IMG/VR virus record: IMGVR_UViG_3300042301_004453
Span: 1 to 60,166 of that record
Direction: 5' to 3' (one strand)
Origin: a virus
Length of the DNA stretch: 60,166 bases
Shown in pieces: positions 2-51,274 of the stretch. Made by a program: the position numbers and the translations under genes. How positions within the stretch are numbered: position 1 is the stretch's first letter; every line of letters begins with the position of its first letter. Below the pieces are notes generated by a model, which was not told the DNA's origin, did no database searches, and saw nothing but the letters and a program-made list of their open reading frames with translations.

Positions 2-3000
2 GGTTCTTCTGGATCGACTGGATCAAATGGTACGGTTGGTGCTTCAGCTAACTCAGGTAGTTCAGCCACTTCAGGTACATCTGCGACTTCAGGTTCAGCT
101 GGTACAAATGGTTTATCTCAATTGAGTGGTAGTGCGGGTTCTTCAGGTTCATCAGCATCTTCTGGTACAAGTGGATCAAACGGTACGAGCGGTAACTCAG
201 GATTGAGTGCAAATAGCGGATCTTCAGCATCTTCAGGTTCTTCTGGAACAAACGGTACTTCAGGTTTGAGTAGATCTTCAGGTTCATCAGGAACTTCAGG
301 ATCTTCAGGAACAAATGGTACAGATGGTGCTTCTGCTTTAAGTAAATCAAGTGGTACATCAGGTAGTTCAGGATCAACTGGTACTGCGGGTACTGATGGT
401 ATTTCTAGAATAGCAGGTTTTGCTGGAACTTCTGGAACATCCGCAACTTCGGGTACTATTGGTACAGTTGGTAACAATGGTGCTAGTAATAATTCAGGTT
501 CTTCAGGATCAAGTGCTTCTTCTGGAACAAACGGTACAACAGGTACATCTGGTTTATCAAGATTGTCAGGTTCTTCAGCAACAGCTGGAACATCAGGTAC
601 TTCAGGTACAGATGGTCAATCAGCTTTAAGTGATACTTCTGGTAGCTCAGGTTCATCAGGAACAACTGGTACTTCTGGTACAGATGGTGTTGGTGGTTTA
701 AGTAGATTATCTGCAACATCAGGATCAAGTGGTTCAACTGGTACAAACGGTACAACTGGTAACGCAGGTGCTAACGGTGCAAGTGCTTTATCAGGAACTT
801 CAGGTTCAACTGGTACAGCTGGTACAAACGGTTTACCTGTTCCTTCTGGAACAAGTAACGTATCAGGAACTTCAGGTTCAACTGGTACTAATGGTACGAA
901 TGGTGCTGCGGGTAATAATGCAATAAGCGCATTGAGTGGTTCTTCAGGGTCAACTGGTACAAATGGTACAAATGGTGTAAACGGTGGTAATGGTTTATCA
1001 GCGAACTCAGGTTCTTCAGGATCAACTGGTACAAACGGTACTAATGGTAACTCAGGTAATAACGCTATAAGCGGAGCTTCTGGATCGTCAGGTTCTAACG
1101 GTACAAATGGTACAGTTGGTTTAATGGCTAACTCAGGTGCTTCTGGTTCTTCTGGTTCTTCAGGAACAAACGGTACAACAGGTACTTCTGGATTAAGTAG
1201 GTTAGCTGGATCTTCAGCAACATCTGGAACTTCTGGTACATCAGGTACAGATGGTCAGTCAGCTTTAAGTGATACGTCAGGATCCTCTGGTTCTGCTGGT
1301 AGTACAGGTACTTCGGGTACGGATGGTGTATCTGGTTTAAGTAGATTGTCAGGTTCTTCAGGTTCTTCAGGTTCAAATGGTACTTCAGGTAACGCTGGTA
1401 ACATTGGTGCTTCTGCTTTAAGCGGTTCTTCAGGATCAACTGGTACTAATGGTACTGGTGGTGTGGCTGGATTAAATGGTATTAGCGCTGTTTCAGGTTC
1501 AAGCGGATCTTCAGGAACTGCTGGTAATAGTGGTTTGGGTGGATCTTCAGGAACATCTGGTTCCTCAGGTACTTCAGGTACTGCGGGTGCTTCAGGTTCA
1601 TCACGATTAAGTGGTTCTTCAGGAACTTCAGGTTCTAATGGTACTTCAGGTAATGCTGGTAACATTGGTGCTTCAGCTAATAGTGGTTCTTCAGGATCAA
1701 CAGGTACAAATGGTACTATCGGTATGAACGGTAATTCTGGTAATTCTGGATTAAGCGGAACTAACGGTTCCACAGGTACAAACGGTAACAATGGTGCTAA
1801 CGGTAACTCTGGTAACAGTGGTTTATCAGGATCAACTGGTACAAACGGTACAACTGGTAATAACGGTAATGCTGGTGGAAATGGTAACTCAGCGGTGAGT
1901 GGAACATCAGGTTCATCAGGTACAGGTGGTACAAATGGTTTACCTGTTCCTTCTGGTACAAGTACTCTTTCAGGTTCTTCAGGATCAAGTGGTACGAATG
2001 GTACAAATGGTGCTGCGGGTAATATTGGCGCAAGTGCATTAAGCGGATCTTCAGGATCAACTGGTACAAATGGTACTATAGGTATGAACGGTAATTCTGG
2101 TAACTCTGGATTAAGTGGTACAAATGGTTCTTCAGGTACAAACGGTAATAACGGTGGTAACGGTGTAAGTGGTTTATCTGGTTTATCGGGTTCTAATGGA
2201 ACTGTCGGTACATCAGGTGCTAGTGGTGCTAATGGTACAAGTGGTTTATCAGGTTCTTCAGGATCAACTGGTACGGGTGGTGCTAGTGGGTTAAGTGGTG
2301 TAAGTGGTCTATCAGGTTCTTCAGGATCAACTGGTACGGGTGGTACTGGCGGTAACAACGGTAATAATGCCATAAGTGGTGCTTCAGGTTCTTCTGGATC
2401 TAACGGTACAAATGGTACTGTTGGTTTAATGGCTAACTCAGGTGCCTCAGGATCTTCAGGATCTTCAGGAACAAATGGTACAACAGGTACTTCTGGATTG
2501 AGTAGACTTTCTGGTTCTTCTGGATCAAGCGGGTCAACTGGTACAAATGGTCAATCAGGTGCTAGTGGTGTAAGTGGTCTATCAGGTTCTTCAGGATCAA
2601 CTGGTACAAATGGTACTGGCGGTAACAGTGGTAACAATGGTGCTGGTGGCGTTTCAGGTGTAAGTGGTACTAACGGTACTACTGGTACTGCGGGTCTTTC
2701 TGGTGGTGTTGGTCTTGGTGGTGAATCAGGTGAAAGTGGTACAAACGGTTCAACTGGTACAAACGGTACTTCAGGTACTGCGGGTGCTTCAGGTTCATCA
2801 CGATTAAGTGGTTCTTCAGCAACTTCAGGTTCTTCTGGAACTTCAGGAACTGCTGGTTTATCAGGTTCTTCTGGATCTTCTGGTTCAGGTGGTACATCAG
2901 GTACTTCTGGATTAAACAGATTATCAGGTGCTTCAGGTTCTTCTGGATCTTCTGGTTCTGATGGTACTACTGGTAATACAGGTATTAACGGTCAAAGTAG

Positions 3001-3420
3001 ATTATCAGCAACTTCAGGATCTTCAGGAACAAACGGTACAACTGGTAATAGTGGTAACAACGGTGTTAACGGTACATCAGCTGTAAGTGGTACTTCAGGT
3101 ACTTCAGGGGCTGGTACGTCAGGTATTGGCCAAAACGGTACATCAGGTGCTAACGGTACATCAGGTACAACAGGTACAACAGGTACAGTAGGTAGGGGTG
3201 GAACTAGTGGTCAATCTAATACTAACGGTTCATCAGGTACTTCAGGTTTATCTAATACATCAGGATCAAACGGAACATCAGGTACTTCAGGTAGAAATGG
3301 TACGGCAGGTACTATGGGTGCTGGTGCTACATCAGGTGCTAATGGTTCAAACGGTACATCAGGTGCTGCTGGTACAAGTGGTCAATCAATCAGTGGTACA
3401 TCAGGTATCAGTGGTGGTTC
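2..3420 (+). repeat. Gly-X-Y coding repeat array with long internal duplications
   Basis: GGT/GGA codons recur every nine bases through most of the region. Long near-copies sit on top of the triplet pattern: about 511-660 with 1147-1290 (offset 639), about 1067-1209 with 2372-2514 (offset 1305), and about 1663-1785 with 2023-2145 (offset 360). All offsets are multiples of three, so the frame is preserved. Synonymous differences between copies suggest the duplications are not very recent. Confidence 0.85.
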
Positions 3421-3868
3421 ATTTACAAGCCAACCTGATTACTTAGTTAGAACAGTAAGCACAACTCAAGTACAAAGTGTTAGCTTCTTGAAAGCTGATA
3501 TGACCAACACTAGATTAGGTATCAATAACGCTTCTCCTTCATACACATTGGATGTTAATGGTGATATATACGCTTCTGGTAACGTTATAGCTTACTCGGA
3601 TGAAAGAGTTAAAGAAAACGTTGTAACTATTAGCGATGCCTTGAATAAAGTAAGAAGTATGAGAGGTGTTAACTATACAAGAAAAGATATAGAAGACAAA
3701 TCGTTACAAATGGGTGTGATTGCACAAGAAGTTCAAAAAGTTATTCCAGAGGTTATTTCAATGAGAGAATCTGATGGTCACTTAGCAGTTGCATACGCAA
3801 ACATGGTAGGTCTACTTATCGAAGCGATAAAAGACTTGGATAAAGAAATCCAAAGTTTAAAGAAATAA
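2..3868 (+). CDS. Giant Gly-X-Y repeat tail fibre with C-terminal S74 chaperone domain (5' partial)
   Basis: The reading frame is open from the first bases of the window, so the N-terminus is missing and the TTG at 122 is internal. About 1,140 codons are almost entirely Gly-X-Y triplets with X/Y mostly Ser, Thr, Asn or Ala and essentially no proline. They are punctuated by less polar breaks such as GLSRLS, ALSD and GLPVPS. The last ~140 residues are normal sequence: a short beta-rich stretch (LDVNGDIYASGNV), then SDERVKE, MGVIAQEVQKVIPEV and a C-terminal helix. This is the peptidase S74 / endosialidase intramolecular chaperone, which trimerises fibres and then cuts itself off before the Ser of the SDE motif (codon 3596-3598). 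The role is inferred as a long virion fibre or adhesin. The Ser/Thr-rich shaft would be a good O-glycan acceptor for the enzymes encoded just downstream on the other strand. Confidence 0.85.
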   Translation, partial: GSSGSTGSNGTVGASANSGSSATSGTSATSGSAGTNGLSQLSGSAGSSGSSASSGTSGSNGTSGNSGLSANSGSSASSGSSGTNGTSGLSRSSGSSGTSGSSGTNGTDGASALSKSSGTSGSSGSTGTAGTDGISRIAGFAGTSGTSATSGTIGTVGNNGASNNSGSSGSSASSGTNGTTGTSGLSRLSGSSATAGTSGTSGTDGQSALSDTSGSSGSSGTTGTSGTDGVGGLSRLSATSGSSGSTGTNGTTGNAGANGASALSGTSGSTGTAGTNGLPVPSGTSNVSGTSGSTGTNGTNGAAGNNAISALSGSSGSTGTNGTNGVNGGNGLSANSGSSGSTGTNGTNGNSGNNAISGASGSSGSNGTNGTVGLMANSGASGSSGSSGTNGTTGTSGLSRLAGSSATSGTSGTSGTDGQSALSDTSGSSGSAGSTGTSGTDGVSGLSRLSGSSGSSGSNGTSGNAGNIGASALSGSSGSTGTNGTGGVAGLNGISAVSGSSGSSGTAGNSGLGGSSGTSGSSGTSGTAGASGSSRLSGSSGTSGSNGTSGNAGNIGASANSGSSGSTGTNGTIGMNGNSGNSGLSGTNGSTGTNGNNGANGNSGNSGLSGSTGTNGTTGNNGNAGGNGNSAVSGTSGSSGTGGTNGLPVPSGTSTLSGSSGSSGTNGTNGAAGNIGASALSGSSGSTGTNGTIGMNGNSGNSGLSGTNGSSGTNGNNGGNGVSGLSGLSGSNGTVGTSGASGANGTSGLSGSSGSTGTGGASGLSGVSGLSGSSGSTGTGGTGGNNGNNAISGASGSSGSNGTNGTVGLMANSGASGSSGSSGTNGTTGTSGLSRLSGSSGSSGSTGTNGQSGASGVSGLSGSSGSTGTNGTGGNSGNNGAGGVSGVSGTNGTTGTAGLSGGVGLGGESGESGTNGSTGTNGTSGTAGASGSSRLSGSSATSGSSGTSGTAGLSGSSGSSGSGGTSGTSGLNRLSGASGSSGSSGSDGTTGNTGINGQSRLSATSGSSGTNGTTGNSGNNGVNGTSAVSGTSGTSGAGTSGIGQNGTSGANGTSGTTGTTGTVGRGGTSGQSNTNGSSGTSGLSNTSGSNGTSGTSGRNGTAGTMGAGATSGANGSNGTSGAAGTSGQSISGTSGISGGSFTSQPDYLVRTVSTTQVQSVSFLKADMTNTRLGINNASPSYTLDVNGDIYASGNVIAYSDERVKENVVTISDALNKVRSMRGVNYTRKDIEDKSLQMGVIAQEVQKVIPEVISMRESDGHLAVAYANMVGLLIEAIKDLDKEIQSLKK

Positions 3869-5325: not shown

Positions 5326-6603
5326 CTAAAAAAACTTACCAAAAAAACTTTTTTTCTCTTTTTTTTCTGAAATTTCTTCGGTGACCTCTTGAATAACCTC
5401 TTCTTTTTTACTTAAAAGTCTATCAACAGCATCTATAACTGTTTGAGTTTTAATGGTTTTAGAACATTCAAAATGTCTTGGTGTGTCTTTGTGATCTGGA
5501 CACCACTCCCAATCACCTGGGTTTAACCAATGTCTGTTAAAACATCCATTACAGATATTTTGGTCTGGGTTAAAGATTCTTTCACAGTCAGCAAACTCAG
5601 ATAATGGGTAACTAAATCCAGAAATAAGGACAGTTGGTGTTCCAATAGCCCAAGATAACCAACTTAATCCACTACCAAGGCCGATAAATGCTGATGCGTG
5701 TTTAATATCGATCATTCTATCAATAAGATCAATGTGACCACCAGTTTTATCAATAACATTTTTCAATGTACCGCCAAGTTTTGAATCATGCCAAGCATCA
5801 CCTAATTTTTCGGAAGTAATCATAACAACTTTATAACCGTTATTATTTAAATGATCGATAACACCTTGCCATCCACCTGGATGATTCCAATATTTAGCGT
5901 GCGCTGATGCGTGTGGTGCAATGATTACATATTTACCATCAATTCGACTAGGTTCATCTGGTACAAATACCTTTGGTTTAACCTCTACATAATCTAAACC
6001 TAAAATACATGAACTACTTTCTTGTAATGGGTGTTGTTTAAAGTCAATTGGTATTTTGGTTTTAACAACTTCTTTGTTATCATAGAACCAACCAATCTTA
6101 TACATAGCGTACAAATCAATCACAGGTGTACCAGGTTTAACAAATTCAATTTCTGGGTACATTTGCTCAAACCATTCATTATGGAATGTTGAACACAATA
6201 CCTTACAGCCGTGTTTCTTTCTAAACTCATCCGCATAAGGGAACCAAGCCATTGTATCGCCAACAGCAGAACTGTCCAAGTGGATATAAACTCGCTTGTC
6301 TTTGCAATCATATGTGTGTTCAAAAACTAATTCGTTAGTATCTAATTCATATACTTTAATATTCCACTCAATAAAATATTCAATAGCACTTTTAGTCCAC
6401 ATATTATTTGTGATCTCAGATACGTGATGAACTTGCCCAGTTTTATTATCAGAAAAAACAACCTTGTATTTTTTTGATATTGGTCCTTTAATTTCGCATA
6501 AAGCACCGTTAACAAAATGTACGATGAATGAATTAGATGGTTGTTTGTAATCTCTTGCTAAGATTTCGGTATTATTGTATTCGTTAATTAAGATGTCCTT
6601 CAT
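5326..6603 (-). CDS. TibC/BAHT-like protein O-heptosyltransferase (GT9-related)
   Basis: The 425-residue protein has a beta-rich N-terminal ~100 residues, then the IHLDSSAVGDTMAW motif (D110 within it), STFHNEWF, and YPEIEFVKPGT. A GT-B second half follows with IIAPHASAHAKYWN and FIGLGSGLSWLSWAIGTPTVLISG. A four-cysteine cluster follows: C351-x2-C354-x13-C368-x11-C380. This architecture matches bacterial autotransporter heptosyltransferases (TibC, AAH, BAHT), dodecameric enzymes whose cysteines bind iron and which transfer heptose from ADP-heptose to Ser of repeat adhesins. The C-terminal tail is lysine-rich. It overlaps the carbamoyltransferase gene by 20 bases. That it acts on the phage's own repeat fibre is inferred. 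Confidence 0.75.
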   Translation of the reverse strand: MKDILINEYNNTEILARDYKQPSNSFIVHFVNGALCEIKGPISKKYKVVFSDNKTGQVHHVSEITNNMWTKSAIEYFIEWNIKVYELDTNELVFEHTYDCKDKRVYIHLDSSAVGDTMAWFPYADEFRKKHGCKVLCSTFHNEWFEQMYPEIEFVKPGTPVIDLYAMYKIGWFYDNKEVVKTKIPIDFKQHPLQESSSCILGLDYVEVKPKVFVPDEPSRIDGKYVIIAPHASAHAKYWNHPGGWQGVIDHLNNNGYKVVMITSEKLGDAWHDSKLGGTLKNVIDKTGGHIDLIDRMIDIKHASAFIGLGSGLSWLSWAIGTPTVLISGFSYPLSEFADCERIFNPDQNICNGCFNRHWLNPGDWEWCPDHKDTPRHFECSKTIKTQTVIDAVDRLLSKKEEVIQEVTEEISEKKEKKSFFGKFF

Positions 6604-8209
6604 ATTTTCTATAGATAAAATTATTTATTATTAATAAGTCAACGATATCATTCTCTAAATGGTTGAATGCTTCGCTCGGGTGGCATACGATTGGTTCTTC
6701 GTGTACATTAAATGATGTGTTTAAAAGAACTGGCACACCCGTTAATTTATTATATTCGTCAAGAACCCTGTAAAATGTTGGGTTGCTTGTTTTAGTAACT
6801 ATTTGTATTCTAGCTGTTTTATCCTTAGGGTGAACAACTGTTGGTATTCTGTCAACCCATTCAGGTCTTGTATCATACAACATAGTCATAAATTCAGCTG
6901 TGTATCTCGATTTAGTGACATTAAAAATTGTATCAGCATGTTCTTCCATAACAGCTGGTGCAAATGGCATAAAATCGTTTCTTTGGAGTTTATTGTTAAT
7001 CTTATCGTAGGTATCTGGGTTGGTGACCTCTCCGATAATACTTCTATTACCTAAAGCCCTAGGCCCATGTTCATATCTACCATTAAACATACCCATAATC
7101 TTACCCTCAGCTAAGTATTTTGCGGCTAATTCTGGTGTAAATATTTCTCTTGAGAACTTATTCTGATCCCAGTAATCTTCACCAACTTCAGCATCTGTGT
7201 ATGATGTACCCATAAACATATTATCCAATTTAAATGGTTTAAAATCTGGGGTAAACATTTTATGTACCATCAAAGCACAACCAAGTGGACAACCCTCATC
7301 ACCCATTGGGGGTGCAACAAACATTTCATCAACCCAATATAACTCATTGATGCGTTTATTTAATTTTACGTTAGCAAATACACCACCAGCTACAGCGACT
7401 TTTTTAACATTTGGGTACATATTGTGTAGGTTATTGAATACTTGTAATATTTTTTCCTCAAAAACTAACTGACCTGTATACGCTAAGTCAGCTTTTGTCC
7501 CGAAAAATACTTTAGAACCTAATTTTTTATAGTAGTTAGTGTAAAAATCAGCATACACTTGACCAAGTAATACATCTGATTGATCTTTATCTGTGTGTAT
7601 ACCCTCAATTTTAATACATTCATTGAATGCTTGGTATGAGATAGTGTCGTGTCTACCATGTGCGGCCATACCAACAACCTTACCTTCATCTTTAAGTCTT
7701 CTAAAGCCTAAAAATTCTGTTAACATCGCATAATAATGACCAAAAGATTTTCTTGTTAAATCCAATCCATCGATGTATTCTAAATTACCGTTAGATCCGA
7801 TAAAATATTTTGCGCTATATTGTCCACCGCTAGCGTCCATTGTAACAACAAGTGTATCTTCATCAAACCCACTCATATAATAAGCCGTACCAGCGTGTGA
7901 ATCATGGTGATCAATGAAAATATATTTTTGTTCTGGGAATAAACCCAACCCCATACTTTCCCAAAAAATTTTAACTTCGTGTTTTGGATAATAGCTGGTG
8001 ATATAGTCGACAGAACTTGGATCAAGGTTAAATTTTTTAATAGCCTCGATTATTGATAATTTAGGGTATCTAAAATAATCACTATAAAAATCTTTGTGTA
8101 CTTTTACCCTTGAGTGTCTTTCTTCTTCTAAAGAAAAAATAATTTTACCGTTTTCTATTAAGCTTATACCACAAGAATGTGATCCAGCTGAAAGTGCTAA
8201 TATTTTCAT
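6584..8209 (-). CDS. NodU/CmcH/TobZ-family carbamoyltransferase
   Basis: The full-length 541-residue enzyme has an N-terminal YrdC/Kae1-like ASKHA half with IDHHDSHAGTAY (H101, H102, D103, H105), TMDASGGQ and AGGVFANVKLN (about 274-284). The C-terminal carbamoyltransferase half carries NGRYEHGPRALGNRS (376-390). The family uses carbamoyl phosphate and ATP to put a carbamoyl group on a hydroxyl, usually of a sugar. The gene sits between a GT4 glycosyltransferase and the heptosyltransferase-like gene, with overlaps of 1 and 20 bases, so it is likely to carbamoylate the sugar that these enzymes add. Confidence 0.9.
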   Translation of the reverse strand: MKILALSAGSHSCGISLIENGKIIFSLEEERHSRVKVHKDFYSDYFRYPKLSIIEAIKKFNLDPSSVDYITSYYPKHEVKIFWESMGLGLFPEQKYIFIDHHDSHAGTAYYMSGFDEDTLVVTMDASGGQYSAKYFIGSNGNLEYIDGLDLTRKSFGHYYAMLTEFLGFRRLKDEGKVVGMAAHGRHDTISYQAFNECIKIEGIHTDKDQSDVLLGQVYADFYTNYYKKLGSKVFFGTKADLAYTGQLVFEEKILQVFNNLHNMYPNVKKVAVAGGVFANVKLNKRINELYWVDEMFVAPPMGDEGCPLGCALMVHKMFTPDFKPFKLDNMFMGTSYTDAEVGEDYWDQNKFSREIFTPELAAKYLAEGKIMGMFNGRYEHGPRALGNRSIIGEVTNPDTYDKINNKLQRNDFMPFAPAVMEEHADTIFNVTKSRYTAEFMTMLYDTRPEWVDRIPTVVHPKDKTARIQIVTKTSNPTFYRVLDEYNKLTGVPVLLNTSFNVHEEPIVCHPSEAFNHLENDIVDLLIINNFIYRKYEGHLN

Positions 8210-9156
8210 TATTGTGCGTATTGTTTGTAAACTTCTAATAATTCTTTTGACCTATTATACCATGATAAAGATTCAGCGTGTTGAATAGCTCTTTCACGAT
8301 ATGCATCGTAGTTGGTGATAATATCATCTAAACCACGTACAATATCTGTAACCTTCCTAGGGGCTCTCCACATACCGTTAAAATCGGTTTCCAGTTCAAT
8401 AGCTCCGTTAATAGGTAAACCACATGCAGCGGCCTCTAAAATCGTTAAATTAGGGTGCCCAGCTTCTAATTCAGAAGGGTGCATGAAGATTGTGTGCCTG
8501 TGATATAAGTTAACCAATTCATCTTGATTTGGTTCCCATTCGATAGATAATTTTGCGTATCCGTTAACCCATGGATTCTCATTAAAGAAATTTTGGTTAT
8601 TTCTTGGGCCAGCAATTGTTATTGGTAGATTTCTCGCCATTGCTGCTTGGATAGCGAAACCAAAACCTTTTCTATCATACCCATCCATACCAGCTAATCC
8701 GTTATTGGCTAAACATAGTAATTTATGCTCTTTTGGTCTGACATCTGAAGGGTGATAAAAATCGGTGTTAACACCATGTGAAAAATAAATAGCTTTTTCG
8801 GTGTCAAAATAAGGTACCAAGAATTTACCAGGCATCAAAGAAACCTGTGATTCGAGAATAGCTCTGTTATTTTGGTTAAAAACATATGACCCTTTACCGT
8901 AGTAATACGCATGGTGATCATGTAATTGATAAATGTATGGTATATCTCTATCCTGTAAAAAATGACATAAATTGGCCATGTGCACGTGAACAACATCGTA
9001 TTCACCTGGTTTAATCTCATTGGCATATTTAATGTCAACTTCATGTCCTAATAATCTTAAATTCTGGGTAAATTCCCATACTATTTTTTCAACAGCACCC
9101 CAATTAGGTGGTGGTACTGGAATTCCGCATCCTGGGTGTACTTGACAAATTTTCAT
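8209..9156 (-). CDS. GT4-family glycosyltransferase
   Basis: The 315-residue GT-B protein has an N-terminal Rossmann half starting MKICQVHPGCG with NWGAVEKIVWEFTQNLRLLGHEV, and DVVHVHMAN. The C-terminal donor-binding half has CLANNGLAGMDGYDRKGFGFAIQA, TIAGP and the GT4 E-x7-E-type signature around HPSELEAGHPNLTILEAAACGLP. It is somewhat short for the family. It shares one base with the carbamoyltransferase gene and four bases with the methyltransferase gene, so it belongs to the same transcription unit. The donor and acceptor sugars cannot be read from the sequence. Confidence 0.85.
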   Translation of the reverse strand: MKICQVHPGCGIPVPPPNWGAVEKIVWEFTQNLRLLGHEVDIKYANEIKPGEYDVVHVHMANLCHFLQDRDIPYIYQLHDHHAYYYGKGSYVFNQNNRAILESQVSLMPGKFLVPYFDTEKAIYFSHGVNTDFYHPSDVRPKEHKLLCLANNGLAGMDGYDRKGFGFAIQAAMARNLPITIAGPRNNQNFFNENPWVNGYAKLSIEWEPNQDELVNLYHRHTIFMHPSELEAGHPNLTILEAAACGLPINGAIELETDFNGMWRAPRKVTDIVRGLDDIITNYDAYRERAIQHAESLSWYNRSKELLEVYKQYAQ

Positions 9157-9746
9157 ATTCTTTTTTTTGCGTATAATAATGCTAGGTTTGTTTCTTTATG
9201 TACTTGTTCGTAATTTACATCAAACCCATTTAATGTAAATTTTTCAATTATATCTAATATTTTATCGTAATTATCGTATATACTATGCAACTCAATAACC
9301 CATTTGTTTGCTCTTTTCATTGTTTCATTTGACATGTTGATTAATAATGGGTATTCCCACCACTCAATGTCCACTTTAATGAAATCGATATGAGTTAAAC
9401 CAAAATCATGTAACATTTTTTCAATGTTATAATGACCTTCTTCGTCTCTATCAGAAACAAACGCTTGTGTTATGGTAACATTTTCATTTGTATTTTCTCT
9501 TAAACACTCAATATATGTTTCATCACATTCAAATGAATAGACATGTTTTGCTTTACGATAATTTAAAGCGTAGTTGGTGAAAAAACCAACATTAGCCCCA
9601 CAATCAACAACTACATCACCTTTTTCAACTTCAACACCATACCTTGAGTATTCGTGATCTAACCAAATTTCTTTGAAGACTGATTCACACCACCCCAGAC
9701 TAAAATCTGGGTGTTTTGTGTTTAATTTGTGGCCGTGTAAATACAT
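9153..9746 (-). CDS. FkbM-family SAM-dependent methyltransferase
   Basis: The 197-residue Rossmann methyltransferase has the SAM-binding motif VVVDCGANVGFFTNYA, an acidic strand end (YSFECDE), and the FkbM-type HIDFIKVDIEWWEYPLL block. FkbM enzymes O-methylate sugars and small molecules. The gene lies between two glycosyltransferase genes, overlapping each by 1-4 bases, so sugar methylation in the glycan pathway is the likely role. Confidence 0.85.
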   Translation of the reverse strand: MYLHGHKLNTKHPDFSLGWCESVFKEIWLDHEYSRYGVEVEKGDVVVDCGANVGFFTNYALNYRKAKHVYSFECDETYIECLRENTNENVTITQAFVSDRDEEGHYNIEKMLHDFGLTHIDFIKVDIEWWEYPLLINMSNETMKRANKWVIELHSIYDNYDKILDIIEKFTLNGFDVNYEQVHKETNLALLYAKKRI

Positions 9747-12496
9747 TAATTAGTAAAAATTGCTGCGTAGTCGTTATCTTTATTTTTATCCTTTCTATCT
9801 ACAATAGAATAACCTGGTAAATGTTTAGTATAGATCTTGTTAGCCATTGCACCGTGTAATTTAGCAACCTTGGTCATCCACAAATCAAACGCATCCCATT
9901 TACAAGTTTCAAATTTTTCTACAAAAGTAGGTAATTTTTCTCTATTAATCAAGTAGGATTGCGCTGGTGCAAAAATACTTAAATTAAGCATTAAATCTTC
10001 ACGCTCACCACTATATCTTTCAGCACAGTAATTACCAAAACCAACCATATCAACATTTTCTTCTTTGGCTAATTGTGACCACCTAATTAAATTATCATAC
10101 AATTCTTGATAAGGTGCATCAATAATAACATCACCCTCAAATACTAAGATAAAATCATACTGATTGTTATCTGGTAAAGTAATACCGTTTTTATGTGCTA
10201 AGAAACAACCATAGTGTCCTGGGGATAGTTTGAAGTACCCTGGTTCAGGTGCAACATCATGTGGTCTATTACACGTATCAACTGGTGGTAACTCCCTATA
10301 AATTTCATTAACTTTTTCGTAATATTCAACATTATCAAAAGTCTTGGCAAAATCTTTCAAAGAAAAAGCTGACCTTAATTCTTTAGGGTTAGTTGTTGGT
10401 TCTGTAACTAAATGCACTATTCTAATTTTAGGTTTAGAAGGGTCATCATTAGTTAATAAATTAACATTATTAAGATTACCTTTATATTCAAACATACCAT
10501 TATTAGGTAATGTGTTTAGTATATAATTGTTGTCAATTTTCATTAACTTACTTTCAATAAATTGTTGTGTGTCTTTATCAAAAGCTTGATAATCAATAGT
10601 ATATTCAGCGTTCTCATCTAAATTATAACCAACCATATTGTACCAAGCACCTCTACCTGTCACAGTAATTTGCTCTTCTTTTAATAATGATCCGTTTTTG
10701 TTAATTTTTATGTTAACAATTCTACTATCGATTGAATTTGAAACTTGGAAATAAACGGTGAATGAATTAGGGATATTTGTCGGTAACACCGTAAAATATT
10801 CTACTCTAGAATAATCTCTATGGTGGAAATTAGTCGCAACTTCGGTTTTAAATTGTTCCTCACCAACCAATTCAATTTGATTCATTTTGTCTTTAAAAGC
10901 AAAATACATCATATTTTCATATCCATTGCTAAATGAACCCCATTTAGTTTTTAAATTTTCATAGTCTTGCGCACAAAATATTGGATCAACCGTGTTTAAA
11001 TAAAAACTAGGTCTAATACCCATAAAGAATGTAGTAACTGAGTGACCCTCTTGATTATTTGGCATATCCCCAAAGTAAGCTGATTTTGTGTTTAATACTT
11101 TTGAAACATTATCCAAATAAGCGTCATTTTTAAGGACATAATCATAGTTAAGGAAATAAACTTTTTCCATACCCAATTCATTTGCCAATGCAGCGCCATT
11201 GTAGTAGTTTGTGTAACAAGTGGGCCCGTGATAAACATCGTTACCTTCACCTCTTAAATTAACAAACGCAAAGAAATCAGCTTCACTGTATCTACTTTGA
11301 GAGTAGTATGTGTGTTTTGTTAAAATATTATTTTTATCGTATATACAATAGTCAACTAAATTTTGTAAATCTGGTGAAATTGGCAGGTGAGAAGTTAATA
11401 TAACCTTTCTACCTGTTTTTTTAGCAGCCATTATACATTCAGCGGTTGTATCAAATACGCTTTTTGTCGTTGGGTAAGTTGAGATTATTACAGCCTCGTT
11501 ACTTCTATCAATATCTAACGCTTGATTACTTTGGTAACCATTTTCAAGAACCTCTGTTATCAAAGAGCAGTTTTTATTAAAATCTGTAAAATCTAAATAA
11601 CTGATGTTATCAAATTTATCAAAATAATTCAAATAAACACCAAGGTTGTAAATTAAAATTGGTAAGTTCCAGGAAATAGCCTCACGAATAACCAAAGGCA
11701 TTGTTTCCTTATCATTATCTGTACCCCTGGATGTAAATAAGAATAGATCCATCGCCTGATAAAATCTATCAACATCTTTTCTTTCACCATGCCAAACAAC
11801 ATTTTCTGGTTTATCCTTCATTAAAGGTTCCCAGTAGTGCGCAAAGTTCCCAGCTTGATTTCCAACAGAATGGAAAACATATTCTGGTAAAGATTTTGCG
11901 TATTCGAAAAATTCTTTTTGATTTTTTCTTGGTGTAAATAAACCAACGTGTAGTATATGCTTTTTATTAGGGTCTAAACCTAAATCTCTTAAAGCATCCT
12001 CTCTATTTGGTCTTTGTTTGTATTCAATAGGATATTCAACCAAAACTTTTGGTATATCAATCGATTCAAATAATTTAATTTGCCAATCAGATACAAACAT
12101 AAATTTGTCTGGAAAAAATTTCTTTTGTGTGGCATCGTATGATGAATCGTGAGAAGTTTCTACAATAACATAATTACGATCTTTTTTGTAGATTTCTTTT
12201 GCAACTTCAAAATCCATGAAATATTCAGGGATTTCTTCTAAGTGTACAATATCAGGTGATACATGATTAATAATATCAATCAATTGCATTTTATTTTCTT
12301 CCAGAGTAAAAAATTTATCTGGCGCAACCATTGAAGTTATTTTATCTCTTTGTACAACCAACACACCACCAGTGTGGTTAGACCATTCAACAACATAAAT
12401 GTCAAATGAATCTCTAAGTAATTCAATTTTTTTAGTTAGGTACTGTGGTAAACCGCCTGTGGAAAGGTGTGGGGCGATGTATAATAATTTTTTCAT
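9746..12496 (-). CDS. Three-domain glycosyltransferase (GT4 - unknown - GT25-like)
   Basis: This 916-residue protein opens the glycosylation cassette. Residues 1-330 form a GT-B/GT4 unit (KKLLYIAPHLSTGGLPQYL; HILHVGLFTPRKNQKEFF; LFLFTSRGTDND; MPLVIREAISWNLPILIY). Residues about 335-580 form an unfamiliar alpha/beta domain beginning AVIISTYPTTKSVFDTTAE, followed by a beta-rich stretch to about 670. Residues about 690-900 look like GT25 (LPS/collagen galactosyltransferase type): RIVHLVTEPT, SPGHYGCFLAHKNGI and ILVFEGDVII in place of the usual ED(D) motif. Multiple sugar transfers by one polypeptide are likely. A host-type promoter lies just upstream. Confidence 0.75.
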   Translation of the reverse strand: MKKLLYIAPHLSTGGLPQYLTKKIELLRDSFDIYVVEWSNHTGGVLVVQRDKITSMVAPDKFFTLEENKMQLIDIINHVSPDIVHLEEIPEYFMDFEVAKEIYKKDRNYVIVETSHDSSYDATQKKFFPDKFMFVSDWQIKLFESIDIPKVLVEYPIEYKQRPNREDALRDLGLDPNKKHILHVGLFTPRKNQKEFFEYAKSLPEYVFHSVGNQAGNFAHYWEPLMKDKPENVVWHGERKDVDRFYQAMDLFLFTSRGTDNDKETMPLVIREAISWNLPILIYNLGVYLNYFDKFDNISYLDFTDFNKNCSLITEVLENGYQSNQALDIDRSNEAVIISTYPTTKSVFDTTAECIMAAKKTGRKVILTSHLPISPDLQNLVDYCIYDKNNILTKHTYYSQSRYSEADFFAFVNLRGEGNDVYHGPTCYTNYYNGAALANELGMEKVYFLNYDYVLKNDAYLDNVSKVLNTKSAYFGDMPNNQEGHSVTTFFMGIRPSFYLNTVDPIFCAQDYENLKTKWGSFSNGYENMMYFAFKDKMNQIELVGEEQFKTEVATNFHHRDYSRVEYFTVLPTNIPNSFTVYFQVSNSIDSRIVNIKINKNGSLLKEEQITVTGRGAWYNMVGYNLDENAEYTIDYQAFDKDTQQFIESKLMKIDNNYILNTLPNNGMFEYKGNLNNVNLLTNDDPSKPKIRIVHLVTEPTTNPKELRSAFSLKDFAKTFDNVEYYEKVNEIYRELPPVDTCNRPHDVAPEPGYFKLSPGHYGCFLAHKNGITLPDNNQYDFILVFEGDVIIDAPYQELYDNLIRWSQLAKEENVDMVGFGNYCAERYSGEREDLMLNLSIFAPAQSYLINREKLPTFVEKFETCKWDAFDLWMTKVAKLHGAMANKIYTKHLPGYSIVDRKDKNKDNDYAAIFTN

Positions 12497-12600: not shown

Positions 12601-14184
12601 TTATCTCAAACCTGTGATACCGAAGCTAACGATATTTTGACATTTGATTACACCATAGAAACGGTTGTTAACCATTTTCTTAGCGTAACGAGTCATAATA
12701 CCTTTAACTGGTGCAAAGGTGAATGGGTTGTACATTGTAGGAGTTAATTGCATTGGCACGTATGGTGCGTAGATGTAACCTGTATCCAACAAAGATGTAC
12801 CTTTGTGACCCATCAAGATTGTATCAGCTGGGAAGTAAGGATCACGGTAAACTTGGTATCTTCCACCCAATGAACCGATTCTTTCAATACCCATGTTATA
12901 TTTGTCTTGCTCTGGAGCAGCGTTAGATACGTGGAAGTATTCTAAGTCGTCCAAGATAGCTGAAACCTCAGCAGAAACTACGATCCAGTTAGCACCACCT
13001 CTTAAAGTAGCTTTGTGGATTTGTGCAGAAACTTGGTTGATCGCAGTGATCAAAGTTTGGTTCCAATCTTTTTGAGTATAGAAACCGTTTGTAGCGTTCA
13101 AACCACCAGTGTTAACTCTTGAACCTGAGTAATCCCAAGTCATTCTCCAAGCAGCACCTCTTCTTAAGTCTCTTAAGATTTCACGGTCAATCTCAGCAGC
13201 AACTTGCTCAGACAATAAAGCTGTTAATTCAGCTTCTGCATCAATGTTATGGAACGCTGATACGTCTTGAGCTAATTCTGGAGACCATTGAGCTCTTAAC
13301 TTTCTTTCGATAACAGAAACTGTTACAGATTGAAGTTCGAAGCTTACTTCACCCATTGTATCTTCATACTCTAATGAAGCGTATTCTTTAGCCGTTACTG
13401 TTAAACCAGTCAAAGGTAATGCTACTGTAGCACTGTTGTTAACAACTGCAACATAGATAACACCGTTAGAATCCATGATTGATTTACCGTATTTTTGAGC
13501 TGGTAAATAGAAATCGAAATCAGCACCAGAAGTAACTGAAGTAACATTCAATGTTGAAAGAACTTCTTCAGCATTATCCCAGTTAGTGATAGATGGAGCG
13601 AAATCAACCTTGACGATTGAAGTTGCGCCTGTTGGTGCACTAGTTCCAGCTAAAGTAGCATAACCATCAGAAGATGATGAGCTAAATTGGTACAAGTTAG
13701 CAGTTGTTGTAGCACCTGTTATTGTTGAAGCAGCACCTTTTGAGTTGTCATAAAGACCGTTTTCGCCATAGAAAGCGTCATAAAGGTTAGGGCTGATTGT
13801 GCTGTTAGGGGTTTTGTCGATACCAGCTGCACCCGAAGCAAATGATGAATTCTCTAACTTCGGAATGAAGTAGAACAATTTACCAATAGGTAAGTTTAAT
13901 GCTTGAACCGAAACGATTTCGTTAGCTAATAATTTTGAGAATACTCTTCTCACGATTGGGAATACCACAGTTTCGAAAGAACCTTCGTTACCTAAAGCAA
14001 CTGATTCATTAAGCATGTGTGATGCTTGGTTTTCAAATAATTGTGCGATATTCTCTTTTCTGTGACCAGCAAGACCTTCTAAAAGACCTAAGCTGTCCCA
14101 TCTGTTAATTACGTCAGTACGTACAGCTTTCAAGTGATTTAAGCTTACGTTACCAACTTTTCCTGATTCTAATAATGCTCCCAT
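12601..14184 (-). CDS. Major capsid protein, T4 gp23-like
   Basis: The 527 residues are close to T4 gp23 (521). The N-terminal half contains FENQASHMLNES, VFPIVRRVFSKLLANEIVSVQ and LPIGKLFYF. The centre contains VSVIERKLRAQWSPELAQDV, then AELTALLSEQVAAEIDREIL, the most conserved gp23 block, and the C-terminus carries YAPYVPMQLTPTMY and GIMTRYAKK. L58-N59-E60 fits the L/I-x-E cleavage rule of gp21-type proteases and lies where T4 removes its ~65-residue propeptide. The gene is followed by a strong terminator, as expected for an abundant product. Confidence 0.95.
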   Translation of the reverse strand: MGALLESGKVGNVSLNHLKAVRTDVINRWDSLGLLEGLAGHRKENIAQLFENQASHMLNESVALGNEGSFETVVFPIVRRVFSKLLANEIVSVQALNLPIGKLFYFIPKLENSSFASGAAGIDKTPNSTISPNLYDAFYGENGLYDNSKGAASTITGATTTANLYQFSSSSSDGYATLAGTSAPTGATSIVKVDFAPSITNWDNAEEVLSTLNVTSVTSGADFDFYLPAQKYGKSIMDSNGVIYVAVVNNSATVALPLTGLTVTAKEYASLEYEDTMGEVSFELQSVTVSVIERKLRAQWSPELAQDVSAFHNIDAEAELTALLSEQVAAEIDREILRDLRRGAAWRMTWDYSGSRVNTGGLNATNGFYTQKDWNQTLITAINQVSAQIHKATLRGGANWIVVSAEVSAILDDLEYFHVSNAAPEQDKYNMGIERIGSLGGRYQVYRDPYFPADTILMGHKGTSLLDTGYIYAPYVPMQLTPTMYNPFTFAPVKGIMTRYAKKMVNNRFYGVIKCQNIVSFGITGLR

Positions 14185-31497: not shown

Positions 31498-32209
31498 AAC
31501 CATCTAAATAATTATCCTTAAAAATACGATATAAAGACTTAAATCTTTTCATACTATTCCTGATTTCCTTCGTATTTAAGCCAGTCATATTACGAATATA
31601 TAGTAATATCAAGTTTTTATTGAATTTGGGTGAGTTTTTACCATCACTGACCTGGGAAAATAATTCACGCCATTCCTCTAGTATTTTTACTAATGAATGG
31701 CCAACCTTAAATTCGTTTTCCGATAAATCATCAGATTTTAGCTCATCTTTTATGTTAGTGGCTAATGTTTCGATAAAAAGTGTAAGGTCAAGATCCTCAT
31801 TATCAATACGATATAGTAGTTCATCTCTCCTTAATACATCACCTTCAGATTGATCTATATCAACCAGTGACGTGTTTTTTTTATATTCTTTGACCATTTC
31901 CCCAAAAAGGTAATTTTTACATATCGTACCAAAGTATGAAAATGATCTTTTACCTTTTTCGGGCTTAAATTTGTCAAATTTTGTCATCAAGAATGACAGC
32001 GTGTCTGCATGTAAATCGTGGAATTCGTATGATTGTCTATATAATTTATAAGTCCTAATAATACTTTCTATCATTGTATTGATAGGTTCTTGTAAGTACT
32101 CTCTATAAATTTTTTCTCGCTCACCAACCGTTTTGGCTTCCAGAAACATGATCACCGCTTTTTCCTGGTCTACACCATAATAGTTGCGATCTTTTTTCTG
32201 TCTTGCCAT
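31496..32209 (-). CDS. Late sigma factor, T4 gp55-like
   Basis: The 237-residue protein has a sigma-70 region 2-type core, YEFHDLHADTLSFLMTKFDK and FKPEKGKRSFSYFGTICKNYLFGEM, and a C-terminal helical segment (LNTKEIRNSMKRFKSLYRIF) that may correspond to region 4 or the gp55 clamp-binding tail. T4 gp55 (185 residues) directs host RNA polymerase to late promoters of TATAAATA type. The gene shares one base with the upstream glycosyltransferase gene. A plausible binding site is the ATATTTATA element found repeatedly in the window. Confidence 0.8.
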   Translation of the reverse strand: MARQKKDRNYYGVDQEKAVIMFLEAKTVGEREKIYREYLQEPINTMIESIIRTYKLYRQSYEFHDLHADTLSFLMTKFDKFKPEKGKRSFSYFGTICKNYLFGEMVKEYKKNTSLVDIDQSEGDVLRRDELLYRIDNEDLDLTLFIETLATNIKDELKSDDLSENEFKVGHSLVKILEEWRELFSQVSDGKNSPKFNKNLILLYIRNMTGLNTKEIRNSMKRFKSLYRIFKDNYLDG

Positions 32210-33039
32210 TACTCACTAACTTCATTTTCCTCATATATTATATTCCTATCATCGTTAAACAAATATTCTTTCTTCGCTGTTTCCATCCAAAATAAAGCTT
32301 GTTTAGGTTCCATCTTATACTCAACAGCTTCACTATTTTTGTATAACCAGAATAATGATTCCTGTCTCATATTCACGTGTTTGTACCCAATTTTTGGGAT
32401 TACCATTGACTTGTAACCGTTTTTGTGGAAACGTAATAAGAATTCATAATTAAATGTTAACTTGATTTGTTTTAAACCTTTAATTTCATTAAATACGGCT
32501 GTTTTAATTACCATACCACAAGGGCTAATGTTTGGGTATTCCAACAAAGATTCCAAATCTATGTTACCCATAGTTTCTGTAAAATTATAGGCCCATACAG
32601 CTTCGTTTGAAAGACCGATAAATTTATTATCCTCAGATACGTCATTAATTATCGGAAGGAACATATCTACCTCTGGGTAAGCCTGGATATGCTGCTCAAC
32701 GTTCTTGTACCAAGTTTTTGATACTTCATCATCAAACTCCAAAATTGACATGTATTCAGTCTCAACATTCTGAGCCGCAAAGTTTATTTGACTTTGGTAA
32801 TCAGTATCACCATCATTAGCAATAATTTCAATGTTTAAGTCGTATTTTGATAAATCCATTGATGATAATTTAGCATCAACTTCAATACAATTGCATCTAA
32901 CGATTAAAACCTTTTCTGGTTTAATGTCATTTCTACTAATTGACGATAGTGCGATGTCAAAAAGATCGTCAAATTTTTGGTTTCCAATATCACTAACCGA
33001 GTGAACTGGGATTATAACGGTTAAATTAGTTTTGTTCAT
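32209..33039 (-). CDS. GT2-like (GT-A) glycosyltransferase
   Basis: The 276-residue protein starts with the GT-A beta strand LTVIIPVHSVSD, has ETEYMSILEFDDEVSKTWY (the DxD-like site as FDDE), and later acceptor-loop features (KNGYKSMVIPKIGYKHVNM). It overlaps the GT-B gene upstream by 14 bases. It probably transfers a sugar in the second carbohydrate cluster. Donor unknown. Confidence 0.75.
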   Translation of the reverse strand: MNKTNLTVIIPVHSVSDIGNQKFDDLFDIALSSISRNDIKPEKVLIVRCNCIEVDAKLSSMDLSKYDLNIEIIANDGDTDYQSQINFAAQNVETEYMSILEFDDEVSKTWYKNVEQHIQAYPEVDMFLPIINDVSEDNKFIGLSNEAVWAYNFTETMGNIDLESLLEYPNISPCGMVIKTAVFNEIKGLKQIKLTFNYEFLLRFHKNGYKSMVIPKIGYKHVNMRQESLFWLYKNSEAVEYKMEPKQALFWMETAKKEYLFNDDRNIIYEENEVSE

Positions 33040-34730: not shown

Positions 34731-34782
34731 ACTATTGTTTATTTTTATATAAAAATAATAGGGTTTCGGCCTAAAATAAAGA

Positions 34783-35547: not shown

Positions 35548-35568
35548 AGATTTTTTTTTCTTATTTAT

Positions 35569-36006: not shown

Positions 36007-36016
36007 TTAAATTTAT

Positions 36017-41052: not shown

Positions 41053-41053
41053 A

Positions 41054-49235: not shown

Positions 49236-49637
49236 TTAAATAACGTCTGTTTTTACAAAAGAATCGAGAATATGAATATATAGTTCCTCTTGAATTGGTG
49301 CGATTAATTCACCGTAAACTTGGGTTGGATTAGCTAAATCAAATAGCGTTAATTTAAACTCACCCAGAAAAATTCCAGGTTTATCCGTATCATCTTTGGT
49401 AAATTGGTACGTTATGATGTAGTGTTTATAACCATTTTCATCACATGGGTTTTCAAGCGCAATTGTCGCTGCTTTATTAGCAACTTTATATATACCCGTT
49501 TTTTCGTCTTTCATCGCAAATGTTGCGACACAATTTTCGATTAATTCCTCGAAACGTCTAAAATCATTGCGTCCATCTCTGAAAACTTTCATTTTCAAAA
49601 TAGGTAATGTTGCGTTTTGTCTTATACTAAATACCAT
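49236..49637 (-). CDS. Small probable virion protein, BppU-like pattern
   Basis: The 133-residue protein is mostly beta, with ATLPILKMKVFRDGRNDFRR, CVATFAMKDEKTGIYKVANK and GEFKLTLFDLANPTQVYGEL followed by IQEELYIHILDSF. The alternation of strands is like the N-terminal domain of baseplate/upper-fibre proteins (BppU/DUF2479-like), which binds fibres. It shares one base with the repeat-bearing fibre-like gene upstream. Tentative. Confidence 0.5.
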   Translation of the reverse strand: MVFSIRQNATLPILKMKVFRDGRNDFRRFEELIENCVATFAMKDEKTGIYKVANKAATIALENPCDENGYKHYIITYQFTKDDTDKPGIFLGEFKLTLFDLANPTQVYGELIAPIQEELYIHILDSFVKTDVI

Positions 49638-51274
49638 TAGAATCTATTTTTTATAAATATCTGTCTACCACCTTTTATTATTGGTAAATTATATAAACTA
49701 GCTATATTTAAAACATTTTTTTTGATTTCAACCGTATACAAAGGTACACAATACATCTTAATAGATTTCACCCCACCTAAAAATGTACCAGCAAAAAATC
49801 TTTCTAAAACAGTACCCATAACTTTTGTTTTATCAAATACCACAGTGTCGATCAAACTTTGGGTTCCACCACCAAATGAAATGTTAAATGGAACACCCTC
49901 TTGATATTTAGCTTCGGTATCTAATTCATGAGGTATAACCTCAACAAAATTACGATTTCTAAAAACTAAAAACCCGTTAAGATAAATTGAGAACGTACCT
50001 TTTTTATAATCACCGTATTTTAACTGGCAATTATTTCCATACGCAAAATCTCTTTCAAATACACCAGTTATATTTAAAAACTTATTTTCGGTTACATCAA
50101 TTACTGGGTTTTTGGTGTAACATTCTTCTATAGTAAAATACTTTGTAACGATTAATGCTCTTGTATAATTAACGCAGTCATCGGTTGGATCCATAATGAA
50201 TGAATTATTTGTTATACCGCTAACTTCTTGTGTTACACCAGTATAGCAAATATCGGTTGGGTATATTGTTCTATACCCAATTCTACCGTCATTTGTAACT
50301 CTAATACCAAAAGCGTTATATGTTAAATCACTATATTCTTGATGATACTGTAGTGGTTGTGAGTCAACTGTATAATTTCTACCAGTATACATTAAACCAT
50401 TATAGTAATTAAAATAACCGACATAATTTGTTAAACCATCCAAACTTATTAAATTATTATATGTAAATAGGTTTTGTGTGTTTAGTGGCACAACATTGTA
50501 GTTATCCTCAAATCTTTGTATTTCAACATCAGTTTTGTCGGCAAATTTATTTTCAGCTCTAGTACCTAAATAAAAAACAAAACCACTGTTATTTGGGTAT
50601 GTGTCATTTAACGTTAAACAAACACCAGAAGACCCAGAAGATCCGAATGATCCTGAGGAACCTGATGTTCCAGAGGTACCGTTAGATCCTGAAGACCCAG
50701 ATGTTCCAGAGGTGCCACTAGTTCCAGTTGAACCTGTTAAATCCATTGGAAAATGAACAACCATATCAACGGTCCAACCCATTTTAGCTCTAGCTGGATA
50801 CCATTCAACATTTTCACCAAAAATTTTATAAAAACCTTGATAAAAACCACCATTTAATTTGTTATAATAAACACCATTATCAACCCTTAAATGATCAATT
50901 TCATAACAATAATTACCACTGTAACCAGATATTTCGTGAAAACAAAATGTATCACCTGTTTCAATAACATAAACTAGGTCCTTATCAACATTAACAACAA
51001 CATTTTCATTAACCGTGTAACCGATGGTGTCCCCAGTGAAATTGTTTATATTAGATACCTCACCGTTGTTTATGAAAAAATTATCATAACCGTTTAAAGT
51101 TATATTCTCGAGTTCAATCTCTTCTGATTGTGATATTCCAGTTGTTGAGCAAAGACCTGCTGTAACGTTAATATCAATTAAATAACATTCGCTATAATCA
51201 CGATAGAAATCACGGCAATCATTTGTTACGATTAAATCGAAATATTCACTTTTATCTAGGGCTGTATAAAACAT
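49637..51274 (-). CDS. Fibre-like structural protein with a Gly-Ser-Thr segment
   Basis: The 545-residue protein is beta-rich with many Asn, Tyr and Gly residues and a block at residues 181-217 of Gly-X-Y triplets (TSG, SSG, SNG) like the shaft of the left-end fibre. Sequence on both sides is normal and globular, with nine or more Cys residues in the N-terminal half and centre. It looks like a short fibre or decoration protein with a flexible or helical linker. It shares one base with each neighbouring gene. Confidence 0.65.
   Translation of the reverse strand: MFYTALDKSEYFDLIVTNDCRDFYRDYSECYLIDINVTAGLCSTTGISQSEEIELENITLNGYDNFFINNGEVSNINNFTGDTIGYTVNENVVVNVDKDLVYVIETGDTFCFHEISGYSGNYCYEIDHLRVDNGVYYNKLNGGFYQGFYKIFGENVEWYPARAKMGWTVDMVVHFPMDLTGSTGTSGTSGTSGSSGSNGTSGTSGSSGSFGSSGSSGVCLTLNDTYPNNSGFVFYLGTRAENKFADKTDVEIQRFEDNYNVVPLNTQNLFTYNNLISLDGLTNYVGYFNYYNGLMYTGRNYTVDSQPLQYHQEYSDLTYNAFGIRVTNDGRIGYRTIYPTDICYTGVTQEVSGITNNSFIMDPTDDCVNYTRALIVTKYFTIEECYTKNPVIDVTENKFLNITGVFERDFAYGNNCQLKYGDYKKGTFSIYLNGFLVFRNRNFVEVIPHELDTEAKYQEGVPFNISFGGGTQSLIDTVVFDKTKVMGTVLERFFAGTFLGGVKSIKMYCVPLYTVEIKKNVLNIASLYNLPIIKGGRQIFIKNRF
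49652..49661 (-). promoter_or_regulatory. Late-promoter-like motif GATATTTATA
   Basis: Exact decamer on the minus strand inside the 3' end of the upstream gene, 14 bases before the ATG at 49637. Confidence 0.5.
50624..50734 (-). repeat. Gly-X-Y (GTSG/GSSG) segment inside the second fibre-like gene
   Basis: Thirty-seven codons carry 12 Gly-X-Y triplets of Ser, Thr and Asn, the same vocabulary as the left-end fibre but on the opposite strand and 47 kb away. Confidence 0.85.

Follow-up and report, generated by a model that had tools for sequence, protein, structure and literature searches.

Why would a phage carry an enzyme of a class known from bacterial adhesins? The question is raised by a gene at positions 5326–6603 of the IMG/VR virus record IMGVR_UViG_3300042301_004453, all 60,166 bases of which are hereafter called the window; the record has no end repeats and is probably a fragment. 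On sequence grounds, the gene product is an O-glycosyltransferase related to TibC and AAH, the bacterial autotransporter heptosyltransferase (BAHT) family as defined in PMC4358343, and it belongs to a distinct, mainly phage-borne subfamily. Its most likely role, we propose, is to attach a heptose-type sugar to Ser residues of the phage's own collagen-like tail fiber, a reading to which we give a probability of roughly two-thirds.

A TibC-type enzyme in a T4-like phage

An earlier note on this DNA, made from its letters, had marked the interval as a TibC-like protein heptosyltransferase gene without naming a strand. The gene is real and lies on the minus strand, where an open reading frame (ORF) fills the interval exactly, while the plus strand has stops throughout. 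The profile search that the note proposed bears out its family assignment: the 425-residue protein scores 318.6 bits (E = 4.9e-95) against TIGR04414, the NCBIfam model of Aah/TibC O-heptosyltransferases, far over the cut-off of 200, and TibC (4rap, E = 2.6e-58) is its sole PDB sequence match at E values up to 1. The T4-like nature of the phage and the presence of neighbors for carbamoylation and methylation, also claimed in the note, hold as well, since the window contains a gp23 gene and has Pfam and NCBIfam matches to carbamoyl- and methyltransferases.

We then mapped the catalytic, donor-site, and iron-ligand residues of TibC, whose roles are described in PMC4358343. In the alignment, Asp-110, Lys-230, Arg-286, and Trp-305 of TibC fall on D116, K237, R296, and W315 of the window protein, Thr-226 falls on S233 (Ser is also found there in 14/24 autotransporter-side rows of the tree described below), and the iron ligands Cys-339, Cys-342, Cys-358, and Cys-370 fall on C351, C354, C368, and C380. 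The LDSSAVGD motif (residues 109–116), the AKYWN segment (which contains K237), and the four Cys are where the note had seen them and the cluster is intact, but its "D110" is not the protein's own number for the catalytic Asp, which is D116; it is TibC numbering, and residue 110 of the window protein is another Asp, the first of LDSS. The catalytic Asp, Lys, and Trp and all four Cys are present in 188/188 viral domains of adequate coverage (194 loci, 193 with BAHT, gave 190 domains that were long enough and extracted, 188 of them with enough coverage).

An AlphaFold2 model of the monomer, built from a 37-row alignment of the window protein and viral relatives (pLDDT, the predicted local distance difference test, 80; pTM, the predicted TM-score, 0.78), has a predicted β-barrel at about residues 25–97 and a GT-B catalytic domain at about 103–400. 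The barrel placed before the GT-B fold, as in the BAHT definition, is thus predicted both by its strands (25–97) and by the VIA alignment. TibC is the best fold match of the model (Foldseek E = 3.5e-33), and VIA superposes 359 residues on TibC 4rb4_G (Z 35.3, 3.0 Å, model range 23–404). The cysteine finger is poorly modeled, with a mean pLDDT of only 43–53 in the blocks covering residues 351–380.

Could this be a GT9-type glycosyltransferase of lipopolysaccharide (LPS) or polysaccharide, which has kept a TibC-like sequence by descent? A Pfam Glyco_transf_9 match and the polysaccharide-type genes around it would fit, but the models of the LPS heptosyltransferases RfaQ, HepIII, and HepI reach only 36.6, 29.1, and 22.5 bits, under their cut-offs of 467, 170.2, and 185.3. 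GT9 structures reach a VIA Z of at most 19.7 and align only from residue 96 onward, i.e., without the β-barrel, and all 188 viral domains have the four Cys. Such a function is highly improbable, and an ordinary GT9 LPS enzyme was rejected on the profile scores and the VIA structure alignment.

The enzyme gene is linked to Ser-rich collagen-like fiber genes

On the opposite strand, facing the operon to which the BAHT gene belongs, lies a gene for a collagen-like fiber of at least 1,288 residues, whose 5′ end is lost at the contig start (the frame is open to position 2). It matches Pfam Collagen (PF01391, 1.1e-93, 307 bits, cut-off 27.2) and Peptidase_S74 (7.4e-15, part from 122), and its first 1,120 residues comprise 338 Gly, 303 Ser, 162 Thr, and 4 Pro. 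The evidence points to this Ser-rich, nearly Pro-free S74 fiber, missed by the earlier note, as the likely acceptor.

We quantified the association across viral contigs. A Gly-X-Y ORF was called Ser-rich when the Ser fraction at X/Y was at least 0.20 and the Pro fraction at most 0.05, with runs of at least 10 triplets for cluster and control counts and at least 12 triplets for the 120-contig sample and the longest-ORF comparison below. BAHT-centered viral loci came from three scans (the best 80 of 232, 35 loci, and 80 of 84), with some contigs present in more than one. Of the clusters formed at 90% identity from 193 viral loci with BAHT, 81 include a locus of at least 10 kb, and a Ser-rich, Pro-poor Gly-X-Y ORF was found in 56/81 of these (61/81 for a Gly-X-Y ORF of any kind); the corresponding counts were 15/18 at 60% identity and 8/8 at 50%. 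Among control loci without BAHT, also of at least 10 kb and including L171, a truncated fragment from the fiber lineage of the window itself, such an ORF was found in 1/39 gp23-centered and 3/45 S74-fiber–centered loci. Loci with BAHT in these same control scans, many of them kin of the window, have it in 4/6 and 16/17 cases, respectively. The median gap between BAHT and fiber is 1.6 kb (104 loci).

The association is also seen in the reverse direction. We searched whole contigs with TIGR04414 in a sample of at least 120 viral contigs with Gly-X-Y genes taken from a pattern scan, and BAHT was present on 5/17 contigs with a Ser-rich gene vs. 1/103 other Gly-X-Y contigs (Fisher p = 1.8e-4, with L251, at a Pro fraction of 0.05, counted as Ser-rich, L323, at 20.9 bits, as lacking BAHT, and L315 as having it). 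Without any selection for Ser, 21/37 nonredundant BAHT loci have a Gly-X-Y ORF, the longest of which per locus (n = 21) shows median fractions of 0.52 for Ser at Y, 0.18 for Ser at X, and 0 for Pro, against 0.02, 0.05, and 0.13 for 114 BAHT-free genes of the sample (Mann–Whitney p = 2.6e-7). BAHT-linked fibers have almost no Pro and almost no charge.

Phage host-recognition clusters often hold glycosyltransferases (PMC7029224), and the linkage could merely reflect glycosyltransferases and fibers sharing a variable host-range region. This is decidedly improbable because BAHT follows Ser content and not the presence of a fiber: 13 of the 45 BAHT-free S74-fiber loci have a Gly-X-Y ORF, yet only the 3 already mentioned have a Ser-rich one, and a single non-Ser-rich contig among 103 carries BAHT. 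Alternatively, the enzyme might act not on a virion protein but on the host, glycosylating one of its surface proteins or repeat adhesins and thereby preventing superinfection or changing the host itself. Phage glycosyltransferases are usually read as modifiers of the host surface or of phage DNA (PMC10202952, PMC7029224), TibC itself modifies surface adhesins (PMC4358343), and relatives in gammaproteobacterial metagenome-assembled genomes (MAGs) adjoin lipoprotein-like ORFs. A host target does not, however, predict a Ser-rich, Pro-poor Gly-X-Y neighbor in most clusters that is rare in controls, and we regard it as unlikely.

A separate branch of the family without the thumb signature

Bacterial relatives were collected in a genome scan that yielded 79 BAHT loci, the best of 90 stretches. 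Nine of the 79 have a Gly-X-Y ORF of at least 12 triplets. Three of them (L363, L364, and L366) are short MAG contigs of possible phage origin, two are MAG contigs labeled as an archaeon and as a bacterium (L369 and L379, respectively), and four are gammaproteobacterial MAG contigs (L371–L374) in which BAHT is flanked by short ORFs, lipoprotein-like by eye, that end in GSS/GTS repeats. Loci from Enterobacterales, Oxalobacter, Acetobacter, and Elusimicrobia mostly have a large Gly/Ser/Thr-rich ORF directly downstream, as would be expected of putative autotransporter genes.

In a midpoint-rooted tree of 63 selected rows, made by a quick method, one branch with a Shimodaira–Hasegawa-like approximate likelihood ratio test (SH-aLRT) value of 99 separates TibC and 23 bacterial rows of autotransporter and Selenomonas type from the other side, where the phage rows (24/24) fall together with the gammaproteobacterial Gly-Ser-Ser loci. 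The tag "SerGXY" in this tree was set by hand and is also carried by L013 and L037, which are not Ser-rich, and by L374, with a Pro fraction of 0.06. The catalytic Asp, Lys, and Trp and the cysteines are kept on both sides, in at least 23/24 and at least 37/39 rows per position.

What differs is the thumb region. In TibC, the thumb, a β-hairpin with a highly conserved hydrophobic tip (F265/V266), builds the dodecamer, and tip mutants fall to dimers and lose activity (PMC4358343). A PxGAED-like thumb motif is present in 21/24 autotransporter-side rows but in 0/39 rows of the other side and 0/188 viral domains. Different alignments of the window protein place either D269/A270 or S274/K275 at the tip, and its model has no strand of at least three residues between 261 and 305. 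The dodecamer, which the earlier note named for the family, is thus not supported here, because the signature is absent from all the viral relatives examined. The apparent loss of the thumb argues against a TibC-type ring in the phage enzyme, and we infer that phage enzymes either reach a larger ring by a different route or have become active as dimers.

Put together, these features make possible a broader proposal, which we advance only tentatively. Within the TibC family, one distinct branch may be specialized in O-glycosylating Ser-rich, Pro-free collagen-like repeats, both in phage tail fibers and in gammaproteobacterial lipoprotein-like surface proteins, acting as an iron-finger dimer and not a dodecamer, with the sugar taking over the role of proline/hydroxyproline.

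Points against the proposal and the nature of the donor

Several observations count against transfer of heptose to the fiber. In 25/81 BAHT clusters, the available stretch shows no Ser-rich Gly-X-Y ORF, which is in part, at least, an effect of truncated contigs; of these clusters, 5 do carry a Gly-X-Y ORF, but only a non-Ser-rich one. The 25 kb read of a 636-kb huge phage that encodes BAHT contain no Gly-X-Y ORF, and 3 of the 21 longest Gly-X-Y ORFs found by BAHT (L013, L037, and L058) are Ser-poor or Pro-rich. In the reverse sample, 12/17 Ser-rich contigs have no BAHT, the BAHT of L315, which is counted among the five positives, is a fragment at the contig edge that scores below the TIGR04414 cut-off, and the BAHT contig L337 entered through a Pro-rich Gly-X-Y gene. 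The known TibC acceptor, TibA, has a different fold, a β-helix (PMC4358343), and the inactive thumb-tip dimers of TibC speak against a working dimer unless the phage clade has adapted. As for the donor, the Arg that contacts adenine (TibC Arg-286) is kept in 107/188 viral relatives and missing in 81 (Thr in 48; Val, Leu, or Ile in 33), and a complete ADP-heptose pathway was not found in the phage records searched, where HldE kinase-like proteins occur in 5/23, HldE nucleotidyltransferase-like proteins in 3/26, and GmhA in 0/26. A full phage-borne pathway was rejected, as these records yielded scattered pieces only.

We nevertheless take ADP-heptose as the default donor, since the donor site of TibC is conserved in the window protein, and this donor probably comes from the host. 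A fiber glycosylated with a nonheptose sugar from some other nucleotide-sugar, a reading that overlaps ours and differs in the donor alone, strikes us as somewhat unlikely. It would account for the variable Arg-286 position, the lack of GmhA, the presence of nucleotide-sugar genes of other kinds in the phage contig L446, and the replacement of TibC Pro-300, which aligns with G310 in the window protein and is G or S in viral relatives. Yet R296, K237, W315, and S233 of the window protein match the ADP-heptose site of TibC, and the Pro-300 position is G in 22/24 autotransporter-side rows as well. A switch of donor nucleotide inside the subfamily is possible, judging from the aligned residues. 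The window also encodes an HldE-kinase-like protein that falls some 60 residues short of the family model and is possibly linked to ADP-heptose supply. The link is unspecific; relatives of the protein are found in 34 phage records, mostly cyanophages, of a collection in which only 4 records have BAHT.

The nucleotide-sugar cluster of L446 (5697–14722) contains genes for an aminotransferase, SDRs, RmlC, a GDP-fucose-synthase–like protein, an HldE-kinase-like protein, and a methyltransferase.

The glycan operon and other genes of the window

BAHT is the last gene of a five-gene glycan operon that follows gp23 on the minus strand in the order large glycosyltransferase, FkbM methyltransferase, GT4, NodU carbamoyltransferase, and BAHT (Table 1). 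Successive members overlap by 1 to 20 nt, the longest overlap being that of NodU with the BAHT start. Beyond the operon lie genes for a glucosaminidase (Pfam) and a peptidase (PHROG). No Pfam autotransporter model was found over the nine ORFs from the fiber to gp23, and the remaining ORFs of the window were scanned partly.

Table 1. Coordinates of the genes discussed (window positions unless a contig is named)
Feature	Position	Strand	Basis
TibC/BAHT-like O-glycosyltransferase (predicted)	5326..6603	-	425 aa, ATG start; TIGR04414, TibC 4rap, residue map, AlphaFold2 model
Collagen-like (Gly-X-Y) tail fiber with C-terminal S74 chaperone; proposed acceptor	2..3868	+	Pfam Collagen, Peptidase_S74
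NodU-type carbamoyltransferase	6584..8209	-	PF16861 2.2e-58, PF02543 8e-31; phrog_1601
GT4-like glycosyltransferase	8209..9156	-	Pfam Glycos_transf_1
FkbM-family methyltransferase	9153..9746	-	TIGR01444 54.6 bits, cut-off 37.7
Multidomain glycosyltransferase	9746..12496	-	N-terminal GT4-like domain ~1-325 (Pfam), weak GT25-like C-terminal part
gp23, T4-like major capsid protein; its gene immediately precedes the glycan operon	12601..14184	-	PF07068 3.1e-73
HldE-kinase-like protein, 254 aa	42338..43102	-	TIGR02198 128 bits, under cut-off 345
Protein with short Ser-rich Gly-X-Y stretch (residues 181-219)	49637..51274	-	Pfam Collagen 24.9 bits vs. cut-off 27.2
(GSS/GTS)n repeat ORFs beside thumb-less BAHT	L371:8545-8925, 11288-11914; L372:11231-11638; L373:7829-9036; L374:8702-9124		

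Viral BAHT loci have two main layouts, that of the window and one in which fiber, large glycosyltransferase, GT4, (FkbM), and BAHT follow each other on a single strand. Among the best 80 of 232 loci, a GT4b relative is found in 75, the large glycosyltransferase in 64, and NodU in 13; carbamoylation thus appears to be a trait of the window's lineage because NodU is so restricted. The same set recurs in a 735-kb huge phage, which encodes the large glycosyltransferase, has GT4 and BAHT fused, and contains a Gly-X-Y ORF rich in Ser. GT4 is the fusion partner of BAHT in 8/9 fused proteins examined, 3 of the 9 coming from MAG contigs. In the huge phage L560, a single ORF scores 286 bits for GT4b and 311 bits for BAHT, and a 1,226-residue protein of Microcystis phage Mel-JY01 comprises GT4, a weakly methyltransferase-like stretch, and BAHT.

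The large glycosyltransferase of the window is less well defined. Its GT25-like end is weak (PF01755, E = 0.0016, under the cut-off of that model), its structural model has a pLDDT of 78 and a pTM of 0.45, with fold matches, no significant PDB sequence match was found, and VIA matches covered only the first ~325 residues. A Foldseek match to COLGALT1 was rejected as weak, with TM-scores of 0.15–0.25.

As for the host of the phage, the best gp23 matches listed are to huge phages, Microcystis phage Mel-JY01, and Flavobacterium phages, at 32–43% identity over the aligned pieces. A similar gene block is present on two Bacteroidota MAG contigs, which may be phage contigs.

Elsewhere in the window, the protein with a short Gly-X-Y stretch (Table 1) is a possible second acceptor. 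A second sugar block on the minus strand (32209–43102) includes WbsX, RgpF-like, and GT2-type genes, a KdsC-like phosphatase gene, and further glycosyltransferase-like ORFs. By eye, the minus-strand ORF at 46082–49180 encodes a 1,032-residue DNA-polymerase-like protein with an apparent extra domain inserted in its first half. In another contig, a Ser-rich Gly-X-Y S74 fiber (L216:7841–10315) lies in a 20-kb stretch without BAHT; some other protein O-glycosyltransferase might serve it.

How the phage enzyme might work and what it would mean

In the mechanism that we propose, ADP-heptose, probably made by the host, would supply a heptose-type sugar for fiber Ser residues in the cytoplasm, while the Gly-X-Y chains are still accessible. 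The general base would be D116, with K237, R296, and W315 holding the donor, while a back-to-back dimer would owe its stability to the four-Cys iron finger. Extension of the glycan would fall to the linked GT4 and GT4/GT25-like enzymes and, in the window's lineage, its carbamoylation and methylation to NodU and FkbM. The glycan might replace proline/hydroxyproline or charge pairs, stabilizing or solubilizing the collagen helix. A Ser-linked sugar is a plausible stabilizer because BAHT-linked fibers are so poor in Pro and charge, although this is the most speculative step of the explanation. The glycan may also alter recognition by the host or by rivals.

If this is true, many phages coat their own tail fibers using an enzyme class known from bacterial adhesins, and phage glycosyltransferases that are usually taken for modifiers of host LPS or DNA deserve re-examination. 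The TibC family would gain a second acceptor class, the function of Pro-free, charge-free Gly-Ser-Xaa collagen-like fibers would be explained, and the dodecamer, thought critical for the family, would be a feature of its autotransporter side. The phage enzyme and its fiber would also form a testable enzyme/acceptor pair.

Comparison with known systems

TibC-type enzymes in phages are not new, because UniProt entry A0A6J5SVC1, the best BFVD match of the phage enzyme, is already named "Glycosyltransferase Aah/TibC [uncultured Caudovirales phage]"; the entry gives this name without a target or linkage. Among the matches listed in the open-licence literature, no paper concerned, by title or start of abstract, a phage TibC/BAHT enzyme or heptosylated phage fibers, and none dealt with the fiber linkage, the thumb-less clade, or the bacterial Gly-Ser-Ser partners.

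Glycosylated collagen-like proteins are known from other systems. L230 of Mimivirus (GT25) glucosylates a collagen-like protein of the virus (PMC9614988), a parallel in that viral collagen is modified, but L230 and animal GLT25D1/COLGALT1 act on hydroxylysine, unlike the Ser acceptor proposed here. The BclA proteins of Bacillus and Clostridioides difficile spores are bacterial collagen-like proteins that are reported to be glycosylated and whose sugar is thought to help a hydration network (PMC8968730); the phage repeats differ from BclA in their high Ser content at Y and near absence of Pro. In C. difficile, SgtA is reported to modify BclA3. In the collagen-like proteins that E. coli prophages encode, nearly half of the X positions are Pro and charged residues are favored; the recombinant one that was tested is not glycosylated, and threonine glycosylation has been named as an alternative collagen stabilizer (PMC3368898). 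Glycans are also found on virion proteins of mycobacteriophages Che8 and Rita, cited in PMC11256854, where the target is the capsid and not, as proposed here, a fiber.

The closest system is that of E. coli TibC/AAH, where TibC glycosylates Ser and not Thr, and where an autotransporter gene adjoins the BAHT gene frequently but not universally (PMC4358343). The phage enzyme differs in having a collagen-like fiber as putative partner instead of an autotransporter, in lacking a PxGAED-like thumb motif, in belonging to a separate clade, and in being phage-encoded. It resembles TibC/AAH in its TIGR04414 score, its predicted β-barrel and GT-B fold, its catalytic Asp, Lys, and Trp, and the four Cys of its predicted iron finger and, as in these bacteria, a gene for a Ser/Gly-rich repeat protein adjoins that of the enzyme.
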